From positions 1-43,459 of the forward strand of contig JAKCEW010000007.1 of assembly GCA_023539445.1 (NCBI GenBank): DNA of 43,459 bases, read 5' to 3'. This DNA comes from Candidatus Terraquivivens yellowstonensis. Lineage in GTDB: Archaea > Thermoproteota > Nitrososphaeria_A > Caldarchaeales > Wolframiiraptoraceae. Positions 169-37,955 of the stretch are shown here, in pieces. Position 1 is the first letter of the stretch. Every line of letters starts with the position of its first letter. The notes beneath the pieces were generated by a model. The model ran no database searches, was not told where the DNA came from, and saw nothing but the letters and a program-made list of their open reading frames with translations. A program made the position numbers and the translations under genes.

Positions 169-294
169 GGGGGCGTGGCCCAGAGGAGCAAGTCTCCGGG
201 GAACAAGGTCTACGGCGCCGGGCTCCAGATCTCCATGAAGCAAGTTGGGTGTGCAGAAACCCGGAGACCGCCGGTTCGAATCCGGCCGCCCCCA
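169..294 (+). tRNA. tRNA-Trp (anticodon CCA) with one clear intron and probably a second
   Basis: Acceptor GGGGGCG (169-175) pairs with CGCCCCC (287-293), with discriminator A294. The anticodon stem CCGGG (218-222) pairs with CCCGG (260-264). Loop bases are CTCCAG (223-228) plus A259, so the anticodon is CCA (225-227). Bases 229-258 are a 30-nt intron at the canonical 37/38 position; AG^A and AA^A fit three-base bulges cut after the second base, with one mismatch in the central helix. The T arm is GCCGG-TTCGAAT-CCGGC. The D arm GCC (178-180)/GGC (214-216) encloses 33 bases, about 20 more than normal, which points to a second intron within 184-206. T-rich sequence after 295 may end transcription. 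Confidence 0.93.
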
Positions 295-20333: not shown

Positions 20334-21572
20334 TTAGAACCAGCTACCTAAAGCCTTTACTGCTTCCGCAACCCTCTTCACGGCAACAATCATTGCTGCC
20401 TGTCTTGCATTCACGGCATACTCTTTGGCGGTCCTCATGACATCGTTAAACGCCTTCACCATTTTCGTATCCAAGTTCGCCTTAACATCTTCCACAGACC
20501 ACTTACTGCGCGTAAGGTTCTGGACCCATTCGAAGTAACTGACAGTTACACCGCCTGCGCTAGCCAGCGTGTCCGGTACGACGAGTATGCCCTTCTCGAA
20601 CAAAATCTTATCCGCATCAGGCGTAGTAGGTCCGTTAGCCGCCTCTATTACGGCCGACGTATTAATCCTATCCGCGTTCTTTGCTGTTATCACGTTCTCG
20701 ATGGCAGCAGGGATTAGAAAGTCGCACTCCAACTCTAGAAGCTCCTCGTTCGTTATGTTCTTAGCCTTTTCGTAGTTTATGACAGAGCCCGTCTTTCTTT
20801 TGTGCTCTGCTATTTTTTCAACATCGAGCTGATCTTTGGAGTATATGCCGCCCTTTGAGTCGCTTACCGCTATGATTCTGCAGCCCATCTCCTGGAGTAG
20901 CTTAGCGGATATGGATCCCGCATTACCGAAGCCCTGTACCACGACCCTCGCGCCCTTCAATGGTTTTCCCAAGTACTTAGCGACCTCTCTCGTGACGATG
21001 GCCACGCCCATCCCGGTGGCCTCATTCCTACCCTCGCTACCACCCAAGGCGATTGGTTTACCAGTTACAACAGCGGGCGTCGGTTCGCCATACATCTTAC
21101 TGTACGTGTCCATTATCCAAGCCATCGTCTGGGCATCCGTGTAGACATCTGGGGCGGGTATGTCTAAATAGGGGCCTATGACCCTTGCAATCGCCATCGT
21201 ATATTTCCTAGTGAGCCTTTCGAGCTCCGCTTGGCTCATGCTCTTTGGATCGCATCTTATCCCTCCTTTCGCTCCGCCGAAAGGTATGTCGACCACCGCA
21301 CACTTCCAGGTCATCAGCATGGATAATGCCGTAACTTCCTCAAGAGTTACGTCCGGATGATACCTTATGCCACCTTTGTATGGTCCCCTCGCGGAATTAT
21401 GCTGAACCCTGTACCCGGTGAAAACCTTTACCTCACCATTGTCCATTTTACAAGGCAGAGACACAATGATGGTGCGCTCAGGCTTCTCAAGAACTTCACG
21501 TAGCCCTTCGTTTAAATTTAGTATCTGCGCCGCCTCTTCGAATTGCTCCCTCACATACGATAGGAAGGACAT
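20334..21572 (-). CDS. gdhA: glutamate dehydrogenase, paralogue 1
   Basis: This hexameric-type GDH interconverts glutamate with 2-oxoglutarate and ammonia. The N-terminal domain has RVQHNSARGPYKGGIRYHP and IPFGGAKGGIRCDP with the substrate lysines, and the catalytic Asp in DIPAPDVYTDAQTM. The Rossmann domain starts with VVVQGFGNAGSISAKLL, and LIPAAIENVIT and EAANGPTTPDAD follow. At 412 residues it is typical. It lies 108 bases downstream of a second paralogue; an AT-rich TATA-like stretch around 21602-21610 suggests its own promoter. Confidence 0.94.
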   Translation of the reverse strand: MSFLSYVREQFEEAAQILNLNEGLREVLEKPERTIIVSLPCKMDNGEVKVFTGYRVQHNSARGPYKGGIRYHPDVTLEEVTALSMLMTWKCAVVDIPFGGAKGGIRCDPKSMSQAELERLTRKYTMAIARVIGPYLDIPAPDVYTDAQTMAWIMDTYSKMYGEPTPAVVTGKPIALGGSEGRNEATGMGVAIVTREVAKYLGKPLKGARVVVQGFGNAGSISAKLLQEMGCRIIAVSDSKGGIYSKDQLDVEKIAEHKRKTGSVINYEKAKNITNEELLELECDFLIPAAIENVITAKNADRINTSAVIEAANGPTTPDADKILFEKGILVVPDTLASAGGVTVSYFEWVQNLTRSKWSVEDVKANLDTKMVKAFNDVMRTAKEYAVNARQAAMIVAVKRVAEAVKALGSWF

Positions 21573-21680
21573 GTTTACCAGAAATTCGGCAAAACATCTG
21601 CATTAAATCTTTTTTTGTTTTTTGTAAAGATTTTTGTTATATATTACGCAACTTGTAAAAATTGTGTAATTCCTAAACGT

Positions 21681-22919
21681 TTATAGACCGTCAACCCTCC
21701 ACATATATTCCTCTAGGTCCTCGCGGGCATACGCCTCCGTAGCTACGTCTATTGCACCCTCTCTCAGTAGCATTGCCTTCTTGACCCTTCTCTTTGCCAC
21801 ATCTTCGGCAACGATTCTGGGAGGATTGTTTGAGTTGGCGGCCTCTATTAGAACCCTCTTCACATTGGTGGTTATCTTGTACTTGATCAGCTCAAAAGCC
21901 TGCATCTCAGTTCCGCCTATATATTCAACATAAGATCCAATGACACCGCCCGCATTAACGAGGAAGTCGGGTATGATCCATACGCCGTTTTGCTGCAATA
22001 TTCTTTCTGCGCCCTTCGTCGTAGGTATGTTTGCAGCTTCGACGACCATCTTTACCTTGGAGGAGATAAGGTGGTGCACGGTTTGCTCATTTATCGTATA
22101 CGAGGTTGCGGCGGGTATGAATATGTCCGCTTCTTTCTCAAATATTTTATCCCTAGGCTCTTTTGGTACGTCATTTAGGTCATTAAGCACAGGAGCTTTC
22201 ATTTTTGTTCTTAAGAGCTTTAGCTCCTCCATTATCTTCGGTATGTCCAAACCATTTGGGTCGTAAATACAAGCTGAGGCGTCGTTTATGGCGACAACCT
22301 TGTATCCCATTTCGTCAAGAAACTTTGCTGTGAATGAGCCCACATTACCGAAGCCCTGTATCGCGATTCTGGCCTCCTTTGGATCAATATTCAATATGTT
22401 TAACTTGTTCAGAATCTTGAGCGATAAATCCGTCGCTATGGCTACACCATAACCCGTGGTTCCGAGCTCATGCGGTATGCCTCCCAACTCTGTAGGCTTG
22501 CCGGTGCAGGCCTTCATGTCACCTATCTCATGCGCAAATACTGCCATATCCATCTCAGTCGTTCCCATATCCGTAGCAGCTACGTATTGTAGCGGCACGT
22601 ACGGTTTAATGGCCTTTGCAAATGCCCTAACCCATGCTACCCTATCAACCTCTAAAGGATTGCCCCTAATGCCCCCTTTCGCTCCGCCGAACGGTAGTCC
22701 GGCTATAGCACACTTCCAAGTCATGACTCTTGCGAGCTGAAAAATCTCTTGGGGCGTCACGGTTGGCTGAAACCTTATCCCGCCTTTTCCTGGGCCCATA
22801 GCTGTGTTGTCAATTACCAAGACGCCCCGCATCTTCGTATGTGGATCGTAGACCTGTATGACCTTTTCTGGTCCCCATTCGTCGGCTAAACTCCATACAT
22901 CAAAATACTGGCTTGACAT
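21681..22919 (-). CDS. glutamate dehydrogenase family paralogue 2
   Basis: This is a second Glu/Leu/Phe/Val dehydrogenase family enzyme of 412 residues, clearly divergent from its neighbour. The substrate lysines are kept (GPGKGGIRF, PFGGAKGGIRG) and the catalytic Asp is in YVAATDMGTTEMD, where paralogue 1 has PAPDVYT. The Rossmann motif is IQGFGNVGSFTAKFL. The differing pocket suggests altered substrate or coenzyme preference, or a regulatory subunit, but GDH is the safest call. It is translated from ATG 22919 with a strong AGGTGAT site at 22925-22931. It has a leader of about 125 bases with three inverted repeats. Confidence 0.88.
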   Translation of the reverse strand: MSSQYFDVWSLADEWGPEKVIQVYDPHTKMRGVLVIDNTAMGPGKGGIRFQPTVTPQEIFQLARVMTWKCAIAGLPFGGAKGGIRGNPLEVDRVAWVRAFAKAIKPYVPLQYVAATDMGTTEMDMAVFAHEIGDMKACTGKPTELGGIPHELGTTGYGVAIATDLSLKILNKLNILNIDPKEARIAIQGFGNVGSFTAKFLDEMGYKVVAINDASACIYDPNGLDIPKIMEELKLLRTKMKAPVLNDLNDVPKEPRDKIFEKEADIFIPAATSYTINEQTVHHLISSKVKMVVEAANIPTTKGAERILQQNGVWIIPDFLVNAGGVIGSYVEYIGGTEMQAFELIKYKITTNVKRVLIEAANSNNPPRIVAEDVAKRRVKKAMLLREGAIDVATEAYAREDLEEYMWRVDGL

Positions 22920-23260
22920 TTCTCATCACCTTTACAATCTCAAGAAGCTTTTGCTTCTCGCATTCTACATTGTTGGGATGCCAACCTAATACCTTTAATA
23001 ACGCATGAGATTCATACAACCATGAATCCCTTTTATTATTGTTCCTTCCATGTTTATCAATATTTTTTATACACTTACAACTACTGTACAAAATTAAAGC
23101 GTCTCTTTGACGTCGCAGTATGCGTTGGGTTGTATAAAATAACAAGACCCCTTCTGACAGCGTGTCGCTACGAACATTTTGCAGATGCTTTGCAGATTTT
23201 TTAACACTATAATAAACCTTAGCGAAATTTTATATATGAACGCTTGCGCTTTGGTTGAAG
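22920..23260. promoter_or_regulatory. divergent intergenic region with a structured gdh2 leader
   Basis: On the reverse strand, GTGTATAAAAAA (23064-23075) is the gdh2 TATA box, giving a start near 23044 and a leader of about 125 bases. Inverted repeats in it are GATTCAT/ATGAATC (23009-23028), GTTGG/CCAAC (22972-22985) and AGAAGC/GCTTCT (22943-22958); the last is about 12 bases before AGGTGAT. On the forward strand, TTGTATAAAATAAC (about 23129-23143) is a second TATA-like box. A direct repeat TTTGCAGAT and T-run near 23175-23202 could mark a short transcript. ATTTTATATAT (23226-23237) serves the chaperonin gene, whose message would start at ATG 23261. Confidence 0.5.
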
Positions 23261-25090
23261 ATGAATGCATCCGCCCACAGGTTCAGAGGCAGGGACTTTG
23301 TACCAACGATTTCCCATAGGTTGCTTATGGAAAAACTCGATAGGGGTTATGCCAAGCTAGCTAATGTTGACCAGAGGCTGTTGCCCCTTTCGCATGAATC
23401 CGTGCCAGAACCCACAATATACGTTAACGGTGAGCCGGCATCCGTACTCAGCATAAGTTCTGAGTTTAAGCTGGGTGAGGATGCCCAATCCGAGAAGTTT
23501 TCTGTCGTCCAGTGGGTGACAGAGTTTGTCTCAGGACTTTATGGACCATTCAGGATGAGTAAGTTGATAACTGATGAAAGAGGTCTAAAATATTTGGCAA
23601 GCGATGTTAGGACCATTCTAAGAAAAGTAGGATTGGCACATCCGATAGCCCAGCTCATGGCAGGTGCTGGTTTGACGATGTCTAAGACTGCGGGCGACGG
23701 GGCCGTTTACACCATAATCTTGGGCGGCAAGATTTTGGAAAGATGTCGGGAACTCATGCTGAAAGGCCTTAGTGTATCTACAATACTTGACGGGCTTCTG
23801 GATGCGCTTAACCAAAGCTTGCACATGCTGGAGCGTCTGTCAATTGATGTTTCATCTCAACGCGAAAAGATGTTGATGTTGGTTATGAATACGAGTGTGA
23901 TGAACAGATTACCTGAGCACATTCGGCATAAGTTTGCAAACATTCTAAACAGGGTGGTGGAAATTGTCGGAATAGATGAGCTGGCATCTGTTGACGTGGA
24001 CAAGGTGGTCGATATAAAAGCCGTTGAGAGCGGATCGCTCGACGACTCGCTTGTTTTAGATGGCGTTGCTGTCTTCAAAGAAATGGCACACCCAGACATG
24101 CCGAAAAAGATAGAGAGCGCGAGGGTTGCCGTGCTTAAAGATGAACTGAGAGTGCATGAAAAAATTGGACGCCAGCTAAACTATTCCTTGGAACTTGAGG
24201 GTGCAGGATTAAAGGAGTTGCTGGAGAGTAAGAATGCGTACGTATCCAGTCTAGTTAAAAAAATCAAGGACCTGAACGTCAGCTTTGTCGTTATTGAAAA
24301 GGGAGCAACACCTATCGCCATTGAGCAGCTTGCAAAAGCGGGAATTGCTGCCATATATGGGCTTCCACATCCTGAGGTAGAGTTGATAGTTAGGGCAGTT
24401 AATGCGCTACCAGCAAAAACGACGCTACTAGAAGACTCAGACCTTGGATGGGCAGGACTCATAGAGGAAGTTGACTTTAATGGTAAGAAAGCAGTGCTTA
24501 TTCATAAATGTAGAAAACCAAAAAGCGTTACTGTTCTGCTCAGAGGTGTAACAAATTTGCTGCAAAGTGATGTGGAGAGGAGTCTTAAGCACTCCCTTCC
24601 GATTTTCTCCCTCATCAGAGAATGTTGTAAGGTTGTCTATGGCGGCGGTGCCTTCGAGATAGAACTATCGCTACACCTTAAAGAGTATGCCGAGAACATT
24701 CCAGACAAGAGGCAGCTGGTCATTAAAGCCATAGCGGATGCGTTTGAGGACGTTGTGTCTGTTCTCTCTACGAACCTAGGTCAAGACCCATTAGAGGTTT
24801 TGAGTAGGCTAAAGTCAGAGCATATGTCTGGAAAGGTTGATGCGTGCGTTAACTCTGAAGGCGGTGTTGCGGATGCTAAAGGTTTAGGCTTGTACGAGTT
24901 GTCCGCTGTTAAGCAGCAGGCTATCAAAACTGCCTTTGAGCTTGCTTACACAATCCTTAGAATAGATGGGATAATAACCGGCAGGAAATTATCAGAATCT
25001 GAGTATTACTACGTGAAAAGGACTAAGGGGACGTCCCCAGAAAGGCTGAGGGAGCTTAAGAAAGAGTACGGTCTTGAGACTTTAGAATAA
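23261..25090 (+). CDS. divergent group II chaperonin (thermosome/CCT homologue)
   Basis: This TCP-1/thermosome-family protein of about 609 residues is longer than the usual 540-560. Family landmarks survive: GPFRMSKLITDERG (canonical GPRGMDKM), a GAGLTMSKTAGDGAV segment where thermosomes have GDGTT, SVTVLLRGVTNLLQSDVERSLKHSL (canonical LLRGGT region) and VVYGGGAFEIELSLHLKEYA. The NDGATIL nucleotide motif is replaced by SDVRTIL. Loss at both nucleotide motifs suggests reduced or absent ATPase activity, or co-assembly with an active thermosome. TTG 23255 is in frame, but the TATA box at 23226-23237 points to leaderless ATG 23261. It is monocistronic. Confidence 0.85.
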   Translation: MNASAHRFRGRDFVPTISHRLLMEKLDRGYAKLANVDQRLLPLSHESVPEPTIYVNGEPASVLSISSEFKLGEDAQSEKFSVVQWVTEFVSGLYGPFRMSKLITDERGLKYLASDVRTILRKVGLAHPIAQLMAGAGLTMSKTAGDGAVYTIILGGKILERCRELMLKGLSVSTILDGLLDALNQSLHMLERLSIDVSSQREKMLMLVMNTSVMNRLPEHIRHKFANILNRVVEIVGIDELASVDVDKVVDIKAVESGSLDDSLVLDGVAVFKEMAHPDMPKKIESARVAVLKDELRVHEKIGRQLNYSLELEGAGLKELLESKNAYVSSLVKKIKDLNVSFVVIEKGATPIAIEQLAKAGIAAIYGLPHPEVELIVRAVNALPAKTTLLEDSDLGWAGLIEEVDFNGKKAVLIHKCRKPKSVTVLLRGVTNLLQSDVERSLKHSLPIFSLIRECCKVVYGGGAFEIELSLHLKEYAENIPDKRQLVIKAIADAFEDVVSVLSTNLGQDPLEVLSRLKSEHMSGKVDACVNSEGGVADAKGLGLYELSAVKQQAIKTAFELAYTILRIDGIITGRKLSESEYYYVKRTKGTSPERLRELKKEYGLETLE

Positions 25091-25111: not shown

Positions 25112-26527
25112 CTAAACTGGGAGTGCGGCCTTTAACTCCTCGAACTTTCTCACGTAGTATTCGTTGTTGTCAGGCAGGTCCGGTGACAGGAAGTATCTTG
25201 TCATCTTTTGCTTATCCTCAACGGAGCCAAGGTCCCTAACGTTGCCTCTTGGATGCGGCGTACCCTTTCTTGGCGGCTCACCGGTCCAGAAGTGCTTGAA
25301 GTATACGTCAGGTAAGAAGAGCGCGTTCTGTAATCTTTCTGGTAGCGTCGCAAACTCTGGCTTATTGGGCCATATAATCTTCATCACTTCCTCTATTGGT
25401 AGATACGTGCTCTTGCCCTCATAGAACCATCCGTAGAATTCATCTCCCATAGCATTCTTGTAATCCTCCCAAGCCCAAGCAGGCGACGGGTATCCCTGTC
25501 TAGTGTAAAGCATCTGTGTGTAAAGCTCGAGGTGCCAGTTGAGTAACCTTATGCCCTCTTCCGCGACCTCAGGTGAGACCAATGAAGAAACGTAGCCAGA
25601 GTTGTACCAGAAGAACGGTCCGTGTTGTAGCGCTGCGTAGTATGCAGGGGTGCCAGCTTTTCTCGTATCAAAACACACAGGCTGCCAAGTGCTGGCTAGC
25701 CACACTTCTCTAGTCGAGAATAGCGAAACGATGTCTCCGTAGGAGAACCAGAACGTCTTGATGAAGCCCTGCTTAACATGCGGTAGGAGGTAATTAAAGA
25801 CGGCATCAACCTCTTCCTCAGTTAGAGAGGTTATAGCACCTGAAAACGTCATCTGCTCTGTTGCTTCTAAGTAGTTTGCAGTCTCGCTAAATACCGTGAA
25901 AGCCTCATCTTGCATTCCGGTCCTTCCTTTCCATTCTGGGTTCCAAAGTTCTGAATAAGCCAACGTTCTCTTCGTACCGCCACGCTCTTCATAGGGTAAG
26001 AACTCAGGTAGGTATGTTACGGAGTCGAAGTTCCACATTACTGGAACGGCTATGAGGGTCTTTCCATATTCGTGCCATAGCAAATAGTTGAATCTCTTTA
26101 CCTGTGCTGGCTTAAAGTACTTCTCGACGTGGTAGAATATGTCTAAGACTTTGTCTGGCTTCCATCTAGGTACCTTCTCAACAGGTATCGGCCTCGCCAA
26201 CCCCTCGGCTATGATGGGCCTGTATCTTCCCGAGGCGGCCACATCCCACGCAGTAGGGTCAGCCAGTTGTTTTTGAGTCATGACAAAGAACTCTAGATAA
26301 GTGGTTTCTACATCAATGCCTGTTATCCTCTCGTATTCTTTCTCGGCATCAGGTGGGAAGTAGAATGGGTGCGTTGAGTATCTGATTCTTGAAGGTCTCG
26401 CCACAGTAGGTGTCGGAGTTGGTGGTGCGCTTGTATAGAGGTACCATGCCACTCCGCCGACGACGGCAGCGGCAGCTATTCCTCCAACCGCGGCTAGGAA
26501 CTTCCTCCTGGATATTTTTTCCGACAT
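25112..26527 (-). CDS. ABC transporter substrate-binding protein (spermidine/putrescine class), Tat-exported
   Basis: This is the extracellular solute receptor of the importer encoded upstream. The N terminus has a twin-arginine motif SRRKFLA followed by a hydrophobic segment AAVGGIAAAAVVGGVAWYLY and a Pro/Thr-rich linker (PPTPTPTVARP), so it is probably exported folded and membrane-anchored. Similarity is to the PotD/PotF-type class: YSTHPFYFPPDAEKEYERITG, AYSELWNPEWKGRTGMQD and a C-terminal DNNEYYVRKFEELK. GTG 26533 and ATG 26527 are possible; TTAAATAT at about 26557-26564 gives a near-leaderless message. It is last in the operon, after a 73-base gap. The ligand is unknown. Confidence 0.85.
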   Translation of the reverse strand: MSEKISRRKFLAAVGGIAAAAVVGGVAWYLYTSAPPTPTPTVARPSRIRYSTHPFYFPPDAEKEYERITGIDVETTYLEFFVMTQKQLADPTAWDVAASGRYRPIIAEGLARPIPVEKVPRWKPDKVLDIFYHVEKYFKPAQVKRFNYLLWHEYGKTLIAVPVMWNFDSVTYLPEFLPYEERGGTKRTLAYSELWNPEWKGRTGMQDEAFTVFSETANYLEATEQMTFSGAITSLTEEEVDAVFNYLLPHVKQGFIKTFWFSYGDIVSLFSTREVWLASTWQPVCFDTRKAGTPAYYAALQHGPFFWYNSGYVSSLVSPEVAEEGIRLLNWHLELYTQMLYTRQGYPSPAWAWEDYKNAMGDEFYGWFYEGKSTYLPIEEVMKIIWPNKPEFATLPERLQNALFLPDVYFKHFWTGEPPRKGTPHPRGNVRDLGSVEDKQKMTRYFLSPDLPDNNEYYVRKFEELKAALPV

Positions 26528-26600
26528 TGTCACCTAATTTTTTGCAAGAGATATTTAAGCTTTTTAACGAATTTTTGTTATAAATAAATATAAATTCCGT

Positions 26601-27422
26601 TTACCGGACTCTTCGGGACATTATGTAAGCGAATATTGCTAAACCTATGAAGGCCATTATCGCGATGATGGTGCCGGCGGCAAACCACTTTGGAGTTATC
26701 GGGTTTATAGAGAGCTCGTTTCTGATATAAGTCGCTAAAGTCCCTGTGCCTTTCATGACAAATTGTGTCCTGATTATTTCACCCCATGAAAGTAGGAAAC
26801 CTATTATGGCTGCCGATATGACCTCGAATATTATCAGAGGCAACGTTATGTGTCTGAATACTTTGAGCGGGCTTGCCTTTAGTACGCTAGCCGCGTATTC
26901 GTATGTGGCTAGATCAGGGTCGAATCTTGACATCATGAGTATGAGGCCGAAGGGCACAGTGTAGACCGTAACAACAGCCGCAACAGCAAGAAGGGATGAT
27001 TCAATACCGAAGAGCCTAAACATGAAGTTTACACCCAAGCCAAGTGCGACACCGGGAACTATGAAACCCAGTATGAACAGATAGAACAACAGGTCCCTGC
27101 CAACGATTCTCCTCCTAAGGGCCAACGCGGTTGTAGTGACCAAGAGGCAGGTAAGTAGCGCCGTTATGATCGATACGTATAGCGAGTTGTTTAAGGCAGT
27201 AAAGAAGTTCTTGTCATGCAGTATTGAGATGTATGCAGAATACTCATAACCAGACGGCGGTTTTGCGTACCAATCCAGCGTAAAGCCCTCTATGGGGAAG
27301 CTCACCTTAGAGCCGCTCTTGAAGGACAGGAATATCATGAAGAAGACTGGAAGGTATATAAAGAGTATGATCAAGGCGATGTAAACTTTTGCTAACCTAT
27401 CTCCCCATCCCATTCTTAACAC
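26601..27422 (-). CDS. ABC transporter permease, PotC-like
   Basis: This inner-membrane permease has about six hydrophobic helices and the EAA loop characteristic of binding-protein-dependent importers (EYAASVLKASPLKVFRHITLPLI). It starts MLRMGWGDRLAKVYIALIILFIYLPVFFMIFLSFK, as in PotC. At 273 residues it is normal. It is separated by four bases from the PotB-like gene, so co-translation is likely. It pairs with that permease to form the transmembrane pore. Confidence 0.9.
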   Translation of the reverse strand: MLRMGWGDRLAKVYIALIILFIYLPVFFMIFLSFKSGSKVSFPIEGFTLDWYAKPPSGYEYSAYISILHDKNFFTALNNSLYVSIITALLTCLLVTTTALALRRRIVGRDLLFYLFILGFIVPGVALGLGVNFMFRLFGIESSLLAVAAVVTVYTVPFGLILMMSRFDPDLATYEYAASVLKASPLKVFRHITLPLIIFEVISAAIIGFLLSWGEIIRTQFVMKGTGTLATYIRNELSINPITPKWFAAGTIIAIMAFIGLAIFAYIMSRRVR

Positions 27423-27426
27423 CTCA

Positions 27427-28317
27427 CTAATACACCAACTTCTTTATATCAACCACCTTCAGAAGCAGGTAAAGTATGAGCAGAGCTATCGCCACCAAAA
27501 TTGTAGAAAGCGCGGCAGCGTAAGGCCATACGAAGTTGGCGGCGTAGTTGGCCACCGATAAGCCAAGCGTCTGTATACCTCCAGCCCATAAGGCCGGTGT
27601 TATGTAGTCTCCTAAGGCACTTACGAAGACGAATATGAAGCCCATCACGACACCAGGAAGTGAAAGTCTGAACGTTATATCGAAGAATACACGGTGCGGC
27701 GGAGCCTTTAATACCTTGGCCGCGTTTATTATGTCAGGATCTATTCTCGTTAACGCAAGATACGACGGGAATATCATCCAGAGCAGATAGGTCTGGGGCC
27801 AGATTATGAGTAGGGCACTGCGCCCGAACAGTAACTCCAAGGGCTCTTTGATCACGCCTAAAGACATAAGGGTATAGTTGACTATGCCGCTCTCTCCGAG
27901 TATCGGTAGCCAAGCAACAACACGGACGCTCCAGTCGATCAGGAATGGTACGAGTAGCAAGCTGACCACGAAAAACCTAGTGCGTGCACTCTTAACCCTA
28001 AACACCAGAAAGTATGCCATAGGATAACCAAGCAGGAACGTTATCAAGCATGCGAGCAAAGACATCCCGAACGTGTTCCACAGTATTACCGGTGTTTGGG
28101 GAGATGTGAAGAATGTAATGTAGTTTTTCAACGTGAAGTTTTCAGGACCTGCGATCGTAAATCTTTCGAAGAAGCTTATGCCGATTATCATGCTGAGGGG
28201 TATCAGCAAAAAAAGCAGTATCAACACAAACCCTGGGAGGAGCAATAGATAACGAGAGTACTTGGCAACCTTATCAATCAGGCCCAACTTCAACTGGGGC
28301 GTACTCAAGCCACACAC
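27427..28317 (-). CDS. ABC transporter permease, PotB-like
   Basis: This is the first permease of the importer. About six transmembrane helices are visible, and the EAA loop reads INAAKVLKAPPHRVFFDITFRLSLPGV. The N-terminal YLLLLPGFVLILLFLLIPLSMIIGISF is typical of the PotB/ModB-related group. At 296 residues it is normal. It directly follows the ATPase gene, with the start adjoining its stop, and precedes the PotC-like gene. Confidence 0.9.
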   Translation of the reverse strand: MCGLSTPQLKLGLIDKVAKYSRYLLLLPGFVLILLFLLIPLSMIIGISFFERFTIAGPENFTLKNYITFFTSPQTPVILWNTFGMSLLACLITFLLGYPMAYFLVFRVKSARTRFFVVSLLLVPFLIDWSVRVVAWLPILGESGIVNYTLMSLGVIKEPLELLFGRSALLIIWPQTYLLWMIFPSYLALTRIDPDIINAAKVLKAPPHRVFFDITFRLSLPGVVMGFIFVFVSALGDYITPALWAGGIQTLGLSVANYAANFVWPYAAALSTILVAIALLILYLLLKVVDIKKLVY

Positions 28318-29445
28318 CTACTTTCCGTATATCACTTCTTCTATATCCAGCCCTTCTATCATGCATGGTTTCTCTATCAACAGAGCATCCTTTGCATCCC
28401 ATCCCAGAAGGTATGTGGACCCAAGGGTAAGGTTGCCTACCTTCTCCGTAGGAACGGAGACCTTTATCTTCGTGCTATCGCCTGTTTGGAACACATACTC
28501 CATATAGTGGCCGAAGTAGTAATAGCTGACTAGCTTTGCATCTACTTTGTTGTCGCACAGCTTGGCCTCTTCTCCTATCTTTACACGTTCAGGTCTTACC
28601 GCGTATGCTACCTTATCGCCAGATGAAAGGGCACTCTTGTTTTTGGGATTTGCCTTAAGTTCGCCTATATCGGTGTTAAGGTAGCATAGCCCCCCATTCC
28701 AAGACTTAATTTGCGCTGAGAACAGGTTTATCTCACCGACGAATCTCGCGGCGAAGACTGTAGCAGGATTATTGTAAACTTCTTCGGGTTTTCCAATCTG
28801 CTCTATTACTCCCGTGTTCATAACCATGACGGTATCTGCAAGGCTTAGCGCATGTTCCTGAACATGGGTCGTTAAGATGAAAGTGTTGCCCACTTTTCTG
28901 TGAATTTCCTTAAGATCCTCCATCAACTTTCTCTGTAACCTGTAGTCTACGTGGCTAAGCGGCTCATCGAGTAGAAGAATGCTTGGGTTAGTGACCAACG
29001 CCCTCGCCAGCGCAACCCTCTGCCTCTGCCCACCGCTCAGCTCGAGCGGCATCCTTTTCTCAAGTCCGGCTAAACCGACGAGTTTTAGGGCTTCCTTTAC
29101 CTCTCTTTCTATTTCCGACTTGTCCTTTCCTAACATCCTAAGACCGAATGCTACGTTGTCGAAAACGTTCATGTGGGGAAATAGTGCATAGTTCTCAAGC
29201 ATCATTGAAACGTCCCGCTTGTAAGGTGGGACGCCCTTCATATCTACGCCGTTTATGTAAAGCTTCCCAGAATCGTAGTCCAATATGCCCGCGATGACCT
29301 TCAGGAGAGTACTCTTACCGCATCCGCTAGGACCGACTATGACGAAGAAGTCTCCTGCATCTATATCAAAAGTTACCTTATTAAGGGCTAAGACCTCCTT
29401 TCCGTACCACTTCACGAGTTCTTTGGTTTCTAAGGCCTTACCCAT
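28318..29445 (-). CDS. ABC transporter ATP-binding protein, PotA-like
   Basis: This is the energising subunit of the importer. Walker A is GPSGCGKST, the Q loop region is MMLENYALFP (Leu in place of the usual Gln), the signature is LSGGQRQRVALARAL, Walker B is LLLDEPLSHVD and the switch His is in TTHVQEHALSLAD. The Glu residue where a Gln is usual (MLEN) is a variation to note. The C-terminal third is a TOBE-type domain that senses substrate. It is first in the reverse-strand operon; a TATA-like box is at about 29490-29505. Confidence 0.92.
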   Translation of the reverse strand: MGKALETKELVKWYGKEVLALNKVTFDIDAGDFFVIVGPSGCGKSTLLKVIAGILDYDSGKLYINGVDMKGVPPYKRDVSMMLENYALFPHMNVFDNVAFGLRMLGKDKSEIEREVKEALKLVGLAGLEKRMPLELSGGQRQRVALARALVTNPSILLLDEPLSHVDYRLQRKLMEDLKEIHRKVGNTFILTTHVQEHALSLADTVMVMNTGVIEQIGKPEEVYNNPATVFAARFVGEINLFSAQIKSWNGGLCYLNTDIGELKANPKNKSALSSGDKVAYAVRPERVKIGEEAKLCDNKVDAKLVSYYYFGHYMEYVFQTGDSTKIKVSVPTEKVGNLTLGSTYLLGWDAKDALLIEKPCMIEGLDIEEVIYGK

Positions 29446-29627: not shown

Positions 29628-30680
29628 ATGAGGATTTTAAGGGAAAGAGAGCTGAAAGACATCGTATACGGTGCTACTTTGCTTGGAGCTGGTGGTGGCG
29701 GTTCGCCTGAAAACGGGATGCAACTCGTTAATAGCATACTAGAAATTAGCGAAGAGGTTAAGATGGTCAGCCCAGAAGAGGTGCCGGATTATAGCATGAT
29801 AGCGGTCGTGGCGGGTATGGGTGCTCCGGAAGTATTGCTCAAGAGGGGATGGAAAAACGAGGACATACCTGCCCTTCGATTGTTGGAGCAAGTACTTGGC
29901 AGGAAGATGGATTACATTATCGCGATTGAAACCGGGGGCTTTAACTCTATAACACCACTCCATGCCGCTGCGGCAAGCGGCGTTCCAGCAATTGACGGCG
30001 ATGGTGTAGGAAGAGCTATACCGCAACTGGAGATGACGATGTTCTACGTACACAACTTGCCTTTAGCTCCAGTCACGCTGGCGGACGCTCACGGGAATTC
30101 GGCAGTTCTTTATCCTGTAGACGCCCCGATGGCTGAAAAGATGGCTAGGGGAATAACTGTGGCTTTTGGTATGCAAGCCGGCATCGCATGCCATCCCATG
30201 GCAGGGTGGCAGATGAAGAAAGCGGTAATAGGCGGAACCTATACGATGGCTGAGAAAGTTGGCAGGGCTATTAGGGAGGCGAGGGACAAAGGCAAGGATC
30301 CCGTCAAGGCTGTAGTGGAAGTCACAAACGGTTTCGAAATCGCAAGAGGAAAGGTTACTAAGAAGGAGGTAGAAACCAAGGGAGGCTTCGATTACGGAAA
30401 AGTCTACGTTGGTGATATACGCGTAGACTATAAGAACGAAAACATGATAGCTTGGAAGGCAGGAAAACCGGTGGCAATATCGCCCGACCTAATATGCTGG
30501 TTAACGACAGATGGTCGTCCCCTTACCAACGCTGATATAAAAGAAGGCTTAGAGGTTGCTGTGATAGGAATAAAGGCTCATGAAAGGTGGAGAACACCGG
30601 AAGGGCTTGCCGTGTTCCGTCCGGTTCTTGCTGAGCTGGGCTACACCGGAGAGTACATACCAATAGAAAAGCTCCTCTAA
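29628..30680 (+). CDS. DUF917 family protein (hydantoinase/oxoprolinase-associated)
   Basis: DUF917 proteins are often encoded next to hydantoinase/oxoprolinase and racemase genes. Family features are LLGAGGGGSPENGMQLV, VAGMGAPEVLLKRG, ETGGFNSITPLHAAAASGVPAIDGDGVGRAIPQLEMTMFY and WLTTDGRPLTNADI. At 350 residues it is the normal length. No independent catalytic motif is established, so the reaction is not known. It starts a forward cluster that continues with the Asp/Glu racemase-like gene and stands back to back with the importer operon, suggesting import and breakdown of the same N-containing compound. Confidence 0.87.
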   Translation: MRILRERELKDIVYGATLLGAGGGGSPENGMQLVNSILEISEEVKMVSPEEVPDYSMIAVVAGMGAPEVLLKRGWKNEDIPALRLLEQVLGRKMDYIIAIETGGFNSITPLHAAAASGVPAIDGDGVGRAIPQLEMTMFYVHNLPLAPVTLADAHGNSAVLYPVDAPMAEKMARGITVAFGMQAGIACHPMAGWQMKKAVIGGTYTMAEKVGRAIREARDKGKDPVKAVVEVTNGFEIARGKVTKKEVETKGGFDYGKVYVGDIRVDYKNENMIAWKAGKPVAISPDLICWLTTDGRPLTNADIKEGLEVAVIGIKAHERWRTPEGLAVFRPVLAELGYTGEYIPIEKLL

Positions 30681-30758: not shown

Positions 30759-31511
30759 ATGCGAAAGATAAGAGTATTGGTAGTTCTCCCTATACTGAAG
30801 AATCCAGCGCTTGAGGAAGTTACACGAAAGGAAATTGAGCAGATTCGAGATGAAACCCTTGAAGTGAATTTGGTCAGCTTGGAACAAGGGCCGGCATCGA
30901 TTGAATCGGAATTTGATGATAGGATAGCATCGCCTTGGGTGCTAGAGAAGGTTAAGGAGGCCGAGGTTAATGGATTTGACGCCGTGTTCTTAGATTGCAT
31001 GGGAGACATAGCTCTGAATGCGGCAAGGGAAATCGTAAGGATACCCGTGATTGGTCCATGCCAGGCCACGATGGCGATTGCCTCGATGCTCGGCGATAGG
31101 TTCTCGGTAATCACAATCCTAGAAAATGTAGTCCCGCTTTTCTGGAGAAAAGCCAGAGAATATGGCTTCATACAAAACCTCGCCTCCGTGAGGTCTGTGG
31201 AGGTACCGGTACTTGAGCTGGATACTAAGAGGGAGTTGGTTAAAAAGAAGCTGGCCGAAGAATCAAAGATTGCAATAGAGAAGGATGGGGCTGACGTAAT
31301 AATCCTAGGATGCACCGGTATGGTGGGAATGGCAAGAGACGTTCAGGAGGTTGTTGGCGTCCCCGTCATAGACCCGGTACCAGTATCGATAAAGCTCGCC
31401 AAACTTATGGCGGAGCTCAGGCTTATTCACAGTAACAAAGCTTACCCAAAGCCGCCATCGAAGTTGAGGAAGTTTCCGGGAGTCTCGGAACTGTTATTCA
31501 AGGGACTTTGA
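30759..31511 (+). CDS. Asp/Glu/hydantoin racemase family protein (1)
   Basis: This cofactor-independent racemase-fold protein has 250 residues. Two catalytic cysteines sit at FLDCMGDIALNAAREIV (N half) and VIILGCTGMVGMAR (C half), as in the two-cysteine mechanism of the family. The PVIGPCQATMAIASMLGDRFSVITI segment is diagnostic. It could racemise 5-substituted hydantoins or Asp/Glu. It follows the DUF917 gene on the same strand, after about 80 bases with TATA-like TTTATTTAAA near 30740. Confidence 0.88.
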   Translation: MRKIRVLVVLPILKNPALEEVTRKEIEQIRDETLEVNLVSLEQGPASIESEFDDRIASPWVLEKVKEAEVNGFDAVFLDCMGDIALNAAREIVRIPVIGPCQATMAIASMLGDRFSVITILENVVPLFWRKAREYGFIQNLASVRSVEVPVLELDTKRELVKKKLAEESKIAIEKDGADVIILGCTGMVGMARDVQEVVGVPVIDPVPVSIKLAKLMAELRLIHSNKAYPKPPSKLRKFPGVSELLFKGL

Positions 31512-35354: not shown

Positions 35355-35360
35355 AGGTGA
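35355..35360 (+). promoter_or_regulatory. ribosome binding site deciding the nadA start
   Basis: AGGTGA overlaps an in-frame GTG (35357) and lies five bases before TTG 35366, favouring TTG 35366 as the start. Confidence 0.5.
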
Positions 35361-35365
35361 GGCAT

Positions 35366-36301
35366 TTGAACAACACCGTCCAAGAAATTAACAGGTTGAA
35401 AGAGGGACTCGGCGCCATTATACTCGCCCACAATTATCAACCTCCTGAAGTACAGGACGTGGCGGACTTCGTTGGCGACAGCTTAGAACTCTCGATAAAG
35501 GCCATGCAAATCGATGCCCGATTTATTGTTTTTTGCGGTGTGGACTTTATGGCCGAGCAGGCGGCCGTAATTAATGAGGGATCTGTGATCCTTCATCCAG
35601 ATCCTGAGGCAAAGTGCCCGATGGCATCGATGATATCTGTCGAGGACATTCGAAGAGCTAGAGAACGTCATCCCAAAGCACCAGTAGTAATCTACGTGAA
35701 CAGTCCGGCTGTCGTGAAAGCCGAGGCCGACTATGTAGTCACGAGTGCGAATGCCGTGGACGTTGTGAGTAACATAAGTAGCGACACAGTCCTCTTCGGT
35801 CCTGACAGGCATTTGGCCGAATATATAGCTAAGAAAACCGGAAAGATAGTAATTCCAGTGCCCGAAGATTGTTATTGTCCGGTGCATGTGAAGTTTAATC
35901 CGAATGAGATAAAGGTATTGAAGTCTATCTATAAGGACCACGTGTTTATTGCCCATCCGGAGTGTCCGGCCAGCGTAAGGGCTTTGGCCGATTTTGTAGG
36001 TAGCACCAGCCAGATGATAAAGTTTGTCAAAAGTTGTCCAAACACGCGTTTCCTCGTAGGTACCGAGGTAGGCATAATTTATCGCATGGTCAAGGAGTGC
36101 GTAGGCAAGTCGTTCGTCCCTGCCTCTACGAGCGCCATATGTGAAGATATGAAAAAAATAACCCTTGAAAAGCTCCTACAAAGCTTGAGGAACAAACTCT
36201 ACAGGGTTGAAGTTGATAAGGAAGTGGCTATAAAGGTAAGAAAGGCCCTCAAAAACACCTTTGATGTTCTTGGGGTCGAGTCGCCGTGGTCCAAGAAGTA
36301 G
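35366..36301 (+). CDS. nadA: quinolinate synthase
   Basis: NadA condenses iminoaspartate with dihydroxyacetone phosphate to quinolinate, using a [4Fe-4S] cluster. The N-terminal region AIILAHNYQPPEVQDVADFVGDSL is a strong signature. Three cysteines are placed as in the archaeal/bacterial enzyme: AKCPMAS, AHPECPA and AICEDM. At about 311 residues it is normal. The start TTG 35366 was chosen for its AGGTGA site; GTG 35357 adds three residues. It is first in the NAD operon, overlapping nadC by 16 bases. Confidence 0.94.
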   Translation: MNNTVQEINRLKEGLGAIILAHNYQPPEVQDVADFVGDSLELSIKAMQIDARFIVFCGVDFMAEQAAVINEGSVILHPDPEAKCPMASMISVEDIRRARERHPKAPVVIYVNSPAVVKAEADYVVTSANAVDVVSNISSDTVLFGPDRHLAEYIAKKTGKIVIPVPEDCYCPVHVKFNPNEIKVLKSIYKDHVFIAHPECPASVRALADFVGSTSQMIKFVKSCPNTRFLVGTEVGIIYRMVKECVGKSFVPASTSAICEDMKKITLEKLLQSLRNKLYRVEVDKEVAIKVRKALKNTFDVLGVESPWSKK

Positions 36302-37146
36302 TATTCAGAAAGTTTTTGAGCTTTCTCGAAGAAGATGTGCCGTTCCGGGACGTCACTACAGATGCGCTGATCCCCGAGGATGTCGTGGTTAGAGCACATG
36401 TAGTAGCCAAGCAAAGCTGTGTTGTCGCTTGTATAGATGACATAGTTTACTTCCTCGAGAGGTTAGGATTACATGTAAAAGAGTTAGTTAAAGATGGTGC
36501 TGAAGTCGAGAAAGGTGCTGTGCTCTTGGAACTCGTTGGCCCTGCTAGAGTTGTTTTAGGTGTCGAGAGGTTAATGCTCAACATACTAATGCATTGTAGC
36601 GGCATCGCCACGGAAGTTAGGAAGCTGGTCAGGTTGGTGAGGAAGGTCAATAGCAAGATCAGAGTAGCGGCGACTAGGAAGACTTTGCCCGGACTGAGAT
36701 ACTTTGAGAAGAAGGCAGTACTAGTGGGCGGCGGGGATGTTCACAGATACTCGCTGTCAGACGCCATACTCATCAAGGACAACCATATTAAGATCATCGG
36801 TAGTGTCGAGAAAGCCTTGGAGATTGTCAAAAACAAGGCCAGCTTCGTGCAAAAGGTCGAGGTCGAGACCTCAACGATTGAGGAAGCAATTAAGGCCGCC
36901 GAGAGCGGTGTGGATATAATAATGCTTGACAACATGAAGTCTGAGGAGGTTGCTAAAGTAGTCGAGGAGCTTAAAAGGAGGGGCTTGAGAGAGAAGGTCT
37001 TGATAGAAGTATCAGGTGGCATAACTTCTGAGAACATTTTAGAGTACGCGAAGCTAGACATCGACATCATCAGTTGCGGTTACATAACAATGTCTAGCAG
37101 GGCAAGTGACATGAGCTTAGAAGTAGTCGAGGTGATTAAGAAGTGA
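36286..37146 (+). CDS. nadC: nicotinate-nucleotide pyrophosphorylase (quinolinate phosphoribosyltransferase)
   Basis: This converts quinolinate and PRPP to nicotinate mononucleotide and CO2. Conserved pieces are EEDVPFRDVTTDALIPED, the ERLMLNILMHCSGIAT helix, ATRKTLPGLRYFEKKAV with the substrate Arg/Lys, HRYSLSDAILIKDNH and VEVSGGIT. At 286 residues it has the usual length. The start GTG 36286 overlaps nadA, and the end overlaps the aspartate dehydrogenase start. Confidence 0.95.
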   Translation: MVQEVVFRKFLSFLEEDVPFRDVTTDALIPEDVVVRAHVVAKQSCVVACIDDIVYFLERLGLHVKELVKDGAEVEKGAVLLELVGPARVVLGVERLMLNILMHCSGIATEVRKLVRLVRKVNSKIRVAATRKTLPGLRYFEKKAVLVGGGDVHRYSLSDAILIKDNHIKIIGSVEKALEIVKNKASFVQKVEVETSTIEEAIKAAESGVDIIMLDNMKSEEVAKVVEELKRRGLREKVLIEVSGGITSENILEYAKLDIDIISCGYITMSSRASDMSLEVVEVIKK

Positions 37147-37955
37147 GGATAGGAGTGATAGGTTGCGGAGCAATAGGCTCCGTTATAATGAATGCCATAA
37201 GTAGAGGCGAATTAAAGGCCGAACTCGTGGGCTTAATGGATATTTATCCAGAAAAGTGCGAAGGGCTGTTGAGGGATTTTGTCGCTAAGAATGAGGTCCT
37301 CGTATGCAGAGATCTCGAAGAATTCTTAAAGGCAAGGCCCCAGCTGGTCGTCGAGGCAGCGTCGCAACAGGCTGTCAGGGACTACGTCCCCAAAATACTT
37401 AACGAAGGAATTGACGTAGTCCTGCTAAGCGTAGGGGCTCTACTGGACGAAGGGCTCTATAACGAAGTCGTTGAGGCAGCTAAGAGAGGAAATGCAAAAG
37501 TGTACATACCTACTGGCGCCATAGCTGGCATAGATGCCATAAAGGCCTTGAAGCCCCTCGGTATTAAAAGGGTCGTGTTAAGAAGTTATAAGAACGTTAA
37601 GGCTTTCGATAGGGAAGTATTGAGACGGCTTGGTTTCAGCGAGGTCAAGGAGACAACGAAGATATTTGAAGGGGAAGGAACTGTGGCTGTAAAGTTATTT
37701 CCAGCCAACGTGAATGTCGTAGCGACGCTAGCCCTAGCCTCAGGCAAGATTCCATGGGTCGAGATATACGCAGATCCCAAATATGATAAGAACGTCCACG
37801 AAATCGAGGTAGAAGGAGAAGTCTCAAGGATATGCGTGAGGGTTGAGAACGTGCCGCATCCAGACAATCCGAGGACTAGTTATTTAGCGCCCCTCTCGGT
37901 AGTTCGGTTAATAAAGCAGCTAACTGAGGGCTCAGGCTTAGTTATCGGCACGTAA
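37143..37955 (+). CDS. nadX: L-aspartate dehydrogenase
   Basis: This makes iminoaspartate for NadA, replacing the oxygen-dependent aspartate oxidase. The NAD motif is RIGVIGCGAIGSVI, and later sections match the family: QLVVEAASQQAVRDYVPKIL, YIPTGAIAGIDAIKAL and the C-terminal VENVPHPDNPRTSYLAPLSVVRLI with the conserved His. At 270 residues it is the normal length. It overlaps nadC by four bases. The three genes form a complete route from aspartate to nicotinate mononucleotide, suitable for anaerobic conditions. Confidence 0.93.
   Translation: MRIGVIGCGAIGSVIMNAISRGELKAELVGLMDIYPEKCEGLLRDFVAKNEVLVCRDLEEFLKARPQLVVEAASQQAVRDYVPKILNEGIDVVLLSVGALLDEGLYNEVVEAAKRGNAKVYIPTGAIAGIDAIKALKPLGIKRVVLRSYKNVKAFDREVLRRLGFSEVKETTKIFEGEGTVAVKLFPANVNVVATLALASGKIPWVEIYADPKYDKNVHEIEVEGEVSRICVRVENVPHPDNPRTSYLAPLSVVRLIKQLTEGSGLVIGT

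Follow-up and report, generated by a model that had tools for sequence, protein, structure and literature searches.

The 43,459-bp stretch of the Candidatus Terraquivivens yellowstonensis genome analysed here (the window; contig JAKCEW010000007.1) encodes a divergent group II chaperonin paralogue that is paired, here and in related genomes, with the solute-binding protein gene of a PotABCD-like ABC importer (Table 1). We favour, without quite granting it an even chance, the explanation that this paralogue is a specialised chaperonin for the adjoining importer, most likely for its Tat-exported binding protein. The underlying linkage between accessory chaperonins and importers is well supported by the gene order of Caldarchaeales genomes. 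Chaperonins are usually viewed as generalists of protein folding, and we know of no prokaryotic chaperonin assigned to a single transporter. No earlier description of a chaperonin-importer linkage was found in the open PMC literature, and the paper on Ca. Terraquivivens, a genus of Caldarchaeales (formerly Aigarchaeota), mentions no chaperonin (PMC9246946).

Table 1. Features of the chaperonin-importer locus, with positions in the window (residue numbers refer to the 611-aa product)
Feature	Position	Strand	Basis or remark
Divergent group II chaperonin paralogue	23261..25090	+	609 aa from ATG, 611 aa from TTG
N-terminal extension, ~60 aa, GRDF...DxGYxK...LLPLxHExVPxPTIY	23261..23434	+	~44-47% identity between families
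SDVRTI replacing NDGATI, residues 116-121; Gly lost, Asp117 kept	23600..23617	+	Alignment
GDGAV replacing GDGTT, residues 147-151; Asp148 kept	23693..23707	+	Alignment
LKHSL, His446 at position of catalytic Asp (Mm-Cpn D386)	24584..24598	+	Mm-Cpn alignment
C-terminal tail RKLSESEYYYVKR...YGLETLE	24983..25087	+	Kept in paralogue family, not in canonical thermosomes
PotD-like solute-binding protein, twin-arginine (Tat) signal SRRKFLAAVGG	25112..26533	-	TIGR01409 20.4 bits, cut-off 16.7
ABC importer permease, PotC-like	26601..27422	-	Importer operon
ABC importer permease, PotB-like	27427..28317	-	Importer operon
ABC importer ATPase, PotA-like	28318..29445	-	Importer operon
S-methyl-thiohydantoin desulfurase-like protein	29628..30680	+	Kept in cluster
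Asp/Glu/hydantoin racemase family protein	30759..31511	+	Kept in cluster

The reading frame of the paralogue is open from a TTG at 23255 or an ATG at 23261, and its stop codon ends at 25090. The initial annotation had placed the product in the thermosome/CCT family, and this is borne out by Pfam Cpn60_TCP1 (PF00118), which it matches with 347 bits (cut-off 34.3) over profile positions 2-487 of 490, that is, across the equatorial, intermediate and apical domains; the Pfam search returned no other family. Like thermosome subunits and Mm-Cpn (PDB 3rus, E 4e-69), with which it aligns over its full length, it retains the whole three-domain sequence, the P-loop GP, the Asp of GDG and the GGG motif. 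It differs from them in having His446 for D386, SDV for NDG and GDGAV for GDGTT, in its long conserved tails and in its gene being tied to an importer, and its scores fall below the NCBIfam cut-offs for the thermosome alpha (313 of 450 bits), beta (311 of 400) and archaeal (302 of 671) subfamilies. The host genome (1.16 Mb) encodes three chaperonins: two canonical thermosome subunits of 560 and 545 aa (663 and 626 bits), and the paralogue (348 bits). The latter is thus about 50-65 aa longer, in line with the ~60 additional residues claimed at the outset, and the extra length is due to the N-terminal extension and the C-terminal tail. A single-chain AlphaFold model based on an alignment of 8 rows had a pLDDT of 52 and a pTM of 0.45, too poor to support arguments on the fold or the ATP pocket.

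Both canonical subunits of the host genome read NDGATI and GDGTT, and the two motif replacements reported in the initial annotation hold against either of them. Each altered motif keeps its Asp, D117 corresponding to Mm-Cpn D60 and D148 to the Asp of GDG. That annotation was right about altered ATP motifs on a retained fold, but it missed the strongest lesion, the His at the position of D386; both D386 and GDGTT are kept in 39 of 39 canonical controls in the alignment. Sequencing error or chance was rejected as the source of the changes, since they are seen again in independent genomes, in all six Ca. Terraquivivens members, and the gene is under purifying selection. In Mm-Cpn, the D386A substitution leaves ATP bound but blocks its hydrolysis (PMC5019054). 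With the equivalent residue gone, loss of hydrolysis is likelier than the annotation could know, and the window paralogue has probably lost it; since the P-loop GP, the GDG Asp and GGG are present, nucleotide binding may persist. Within the paralogue family, the D386 position is occupied by His in six Terraquivivens, Ser in two Ca. Pelearchaeum genomes, Asn in genome G041 and Asp in archaeon HR01 (G031). As HR01 keeps the D386 equivalent, loss of hydrolysis is not family-wide, and these residues suggest that ATPase activity was probably lost in some branches. K161 was also considered as an ATPase marker and dropped, its column being variable in canonical subunits as well.

Near relatives of the paralogue were found in genomes of Ca. 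Terraquivivens, with orthologues in 6 of 6 genus members and in three genomes of another family (two of Ca. Pelearchaeum, and HR01). Both tails are kept between the families although overall paralogue identity is only about 34-35%. A profile of the N-terminal tail matches 9 of the 44 genomes of the class, and a search of 398 phylum genomes added just one match, in a gene truncated where its contig stops. A more distant family member with the same gene arrangement is encoded in G041. Apart from these, a weak match of the tail profile that contains stops (G005:C5:151834-151980, L051; E 3e-4) lies away from the main gene and could be due to chance or be a relic. Within the genus, dN/dS of the paralogue is mostly 0.09-0.12, indicating purifying selection; a canonical subunit gave about 0.03, and the binding protein encoded next to the paralogue 0.04-0.06. 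Between families, identity is 35% for the paralogue, 67% for the binding protein and 63-64% for the permeases. A pseudogene was rejected, since the frame is open in six species and dN/dS is about 0.1.

The gene of the binding protein converges on that of the chaperonin, its 3' end lying 21 bp from the chaperonin stop. Full-length orthologues of the binding protein were found, among 41 genomes searched, in the same 9 genomes as the tail profile, one copy being broken; outside those nine, only signal-region matches and one distant homologue were detected. The two genes are convergent neighbours in 9 of 9 genomes, with a gap of 15-29 bp or an overlap of 8 bp. In the Pelearchaeum genomes and HR01 the layout is inverted, with ATPase, permease, permease and chaperonin in this order on one strand (permease-chaperonin gaps of 4-25 bp) and the binding-protein gene facing the chaperonin, and the pair is nevertheless kept. 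The main counter-evidence to a client-dedicated chaperonin comes from Ca. T. tikiterensis (G004), whose genome encodes an intact chaperonin but no copy of the permease, and in which the binding-protein gene (L038, 11394-12780) is broken, lacking its N-terminal part, with matches beginning at residue 106. A recent loss or a MAG misjoin is possible there.

Two other explanations bear on this neighbourhood. The initial annotation had suggested a regulatory or adaptor subunit comparable to the BBS proteins; MKKS/BBS6, BBS10 and BBS12 are chaperonin paralogues that evolve fast, have altered ATP motifs and keep a conserved Gly-Pro (PMC2846930). A monomeric scaffold or regulator of the BBS/MKKS kind, independent of the importer and devoid of chaperone activity, would agree with the altered motifs and fast evolution that the paralogue shares with MKKS and BBS12 (PMC2846930), but the tight, conserved linkage to the importer and the co-occurrence with it make this quite improbable. 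The comparison stands as an analogy only: the BBS proteins resemble the paralogue in their altered ATP motifs and conserved Gly-Pro but are eukaryotic and cilium-related, whereas the archaeal gene is transporter-linked, and its context points to the Tat-exported ABC binding protein rather than to general thermosome regulation. Alternatively, the clients could be the ABC ATPase, the permeases or the hydantoin-type enzymes of the cluster instead of the binding protein. We regard this as unlikely: it would suit the position of the chaperonin gene at the end of the importer run in Pelearchaeum and HR01, as well as the hydantoinase-type, kinase or AOR-like genes beside other accessory chaperonins, but such enzymes vary by cluster, the element shared among clusters is an importer whose binding protein has a twin-arginine (RR) motif, and in the window family the nearest neighbour is the binding-protein gene.

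An RR motif followed by a hydrophobic stretch is present in every chaperonin-linked binding protein with a readable start, compared with 16 of 38 unlinked binding proteins in three genomes (0/5 readable N-termini in the window's genome, 9/16 in G031 and 7/17 in G024; the ambiguous KRRGIG was scored as lacking the motif). The p-value of this contrast is about 1e-3 when the linked proteins are counted as about ten independent groups. Tat signals are therefore not a universal property of binding proteins in these genomes, 22 of the 38 unlinked ones lacking the motif. The Tat HMM gives a weaker contrast: of 12 linked binding proteins, 3 reached its cut-off, the assignment of the others resting on the RR motif, and none of the 5 unlinked ones of the window's genome did. 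The window's genome encodes TatC, as do 40 of the 44 class genomes.

The chaperonins of the 44 class genomes were divided into canonical (≥573 bits, fragments aside) and accessory (≤521 bits) ones, and 34 accessory loci were examined, including one from outside the class (G264). An ABC binding-protein gene lies within 6 kb in 27 of the 34 accessory loci versus 0 of 39 canonical loci (Fisher p about 1e-13, a value that overstates independence because the loci are related), and the gene directly beside the chaperonin encodes an ABC component in 17 of the 27 accessory loci whose flanks are long enough, versus 0 of 39. As the seeds for importer recognition were taken from accessory loci, importers of other types near canonical genes could have been missed in this comparison. 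Some chance proximity is expected, since ABC importers are abundant (about 13-50 permease genes per genome), and was roughly estimated at 10-22% per locus. Among the seven accessory loci with no importer, four are at contig edges, and L108, L109 and L114 are true exceptions. The linked importers are of the Pot, ribose-like, branched-chain amino acid/urea-like and sugar-like types. The linked accessory chaperonins do not group together on a tree limited to sequences of the window's phylum, where they require at least 6 label changes; a single origin is unsupported by this tree, although its long branches leave the branching order uncertain. Outside the class, the linkage extends to two accessory chaperonins of G229, a genome that belongs to another family (f48) of the phylum, which are linked to RR-motif binding proteins. 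It is not general to accessory archaeal chaperonins, none being seen in G046, G049, G078, G090, G123, G219, G226 and G236.

The individual loci also yielded some separate observations. In G229 (L165, L169), each chaperonin gene adjoins that of a binding protein with the Tat-like signal SRRGYVKY, together with permeases. Accessory chaperonins lie beside ABC operons with twin-arginine binding proteins at L089-L095, L097, L099, L100, L104, L110-L113, L115 and L116, and one accessory clade, with GDGTK and D386 kept, shares its gene cluster with an AOR-like gene and a kinase resembling xylulokinase. The simplest interpretation of the order-wide linkage is that accessory chaperonins work for the Tat-type binding protein encoded next to them.

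The repeated linkage also bears on a third alternative, that the paralogue is an extra subunit in mixed rings with the canonical subunits, tuning their cycle or choice of client like the divergent CCT subunits, and that its adjacency to the importer reflects nutrient co-regulation. Two canonical subunits are available in the host genome, the paralogue aligns across the whole chaperonin with P-loop GP and GGG kept, and eight copies of its ~60- and ~35-aa tails would largely fill the cavity of a homo-ring, so that a minority subunit would fit better. We nevertheless consider this explanation rather unlikely, since it leaves unexplained why separate accessory lineages are repeatedly linked to importers with RR-motif binding proteins. 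An adaptor role of the paralogue within such a mixed ring is nevertheless conceivable.

Tat substrates have to fold in the cytoplasm before export. For the specialised-chaperonin explanation that we favour, the following steps can be proposed: i) the paralogue would use its apical domain, its family-specific N- and C-terminal tails, or both to bind the precursor of the binding protein, ii) it would hold or proof-read the precursor until folded, a role like that of TorD and DmsD with redox enzymes, and iii) it would probably bind nucleotide but hydrolyse it poorly, given the loss of the catalytic Asp, and would then serve either as a holder that cycles slowly or as a subunit that modifies the canonical thermosome. 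The analysis shows the sequence changes, the purifying selection, the conserved tails, the co-occurrence and linkage of the genes and the Tat motif of the client, whereas physical contact between the two proteins, its direction of action, the oligomeric state and the loss of ATPase are inferred. From the linkage and the residues together, we infer that an ATPase-impaired holder or thermosome-modifying subunit is more probable than a folding ring of the ordinary kind.

A known counterpart of such a role is provided by the Tat proof-reading chaperones (REMPs), whose genes lie close to those of their clients. The same arrangement was found here, the paralogue gene being 21 bp from one whose product passes the Tat-signal model TIGR01409 (20.4 versus 16.7). 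The Tat pathway exports folded proteins, some of which are held by dedicated chaperones until ready (PMC3316669), and the proposed role of the paralogue resembles that of TorD, DmsD and NarJ in assigning one chaperone to one Tat client (PMC3316669). The REMPs differ from it in their unrelated fold, the Pfam search of the paralogue having given no match to a TorD/DmsD/NarJ-type family, and the putative clients here are binding proteins without known cofactors. The other Caldarchaeales accessory chaperonins are closer in that they are likewise linked to importers with twin-arginine binding proteins, but they belong to separate lineages, and many keep D386 and read GDGTK. It is conceivable, and we put it forward tentatively, that group II chaperonins of Caldarchaeales were repeatedly duplicated and recruited for single Tat-exported ABC binding proteins, in some cases, such as that of the window paralogue, after losing hydrolysis, as a chaperonin-based counterpart of the Tat proof-reading chaperones. 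If true, this would show how hot archaea ready folded proteins for export, and would offer single-client chaperonins, some having the ATPase residues and others lacking them, in which the evolution of client specificity could be tested.

Three further features of the window were noted. Two adjoining glutamate dehydrogenase paralogues (20334-22919), 412 aa each, are of clearly different types, the second scoring low against archaeal GDH models. A tRNA match at 169-294 (+) spans 126 bases compared with a 71-position model and is probably an intron-containing tRNA. The genes for NadA, quinolinate phosphoribosyltransferase and aspartate dehydrogenase follow one another at 35357-37955, forming a compact NAD synthesis operon.
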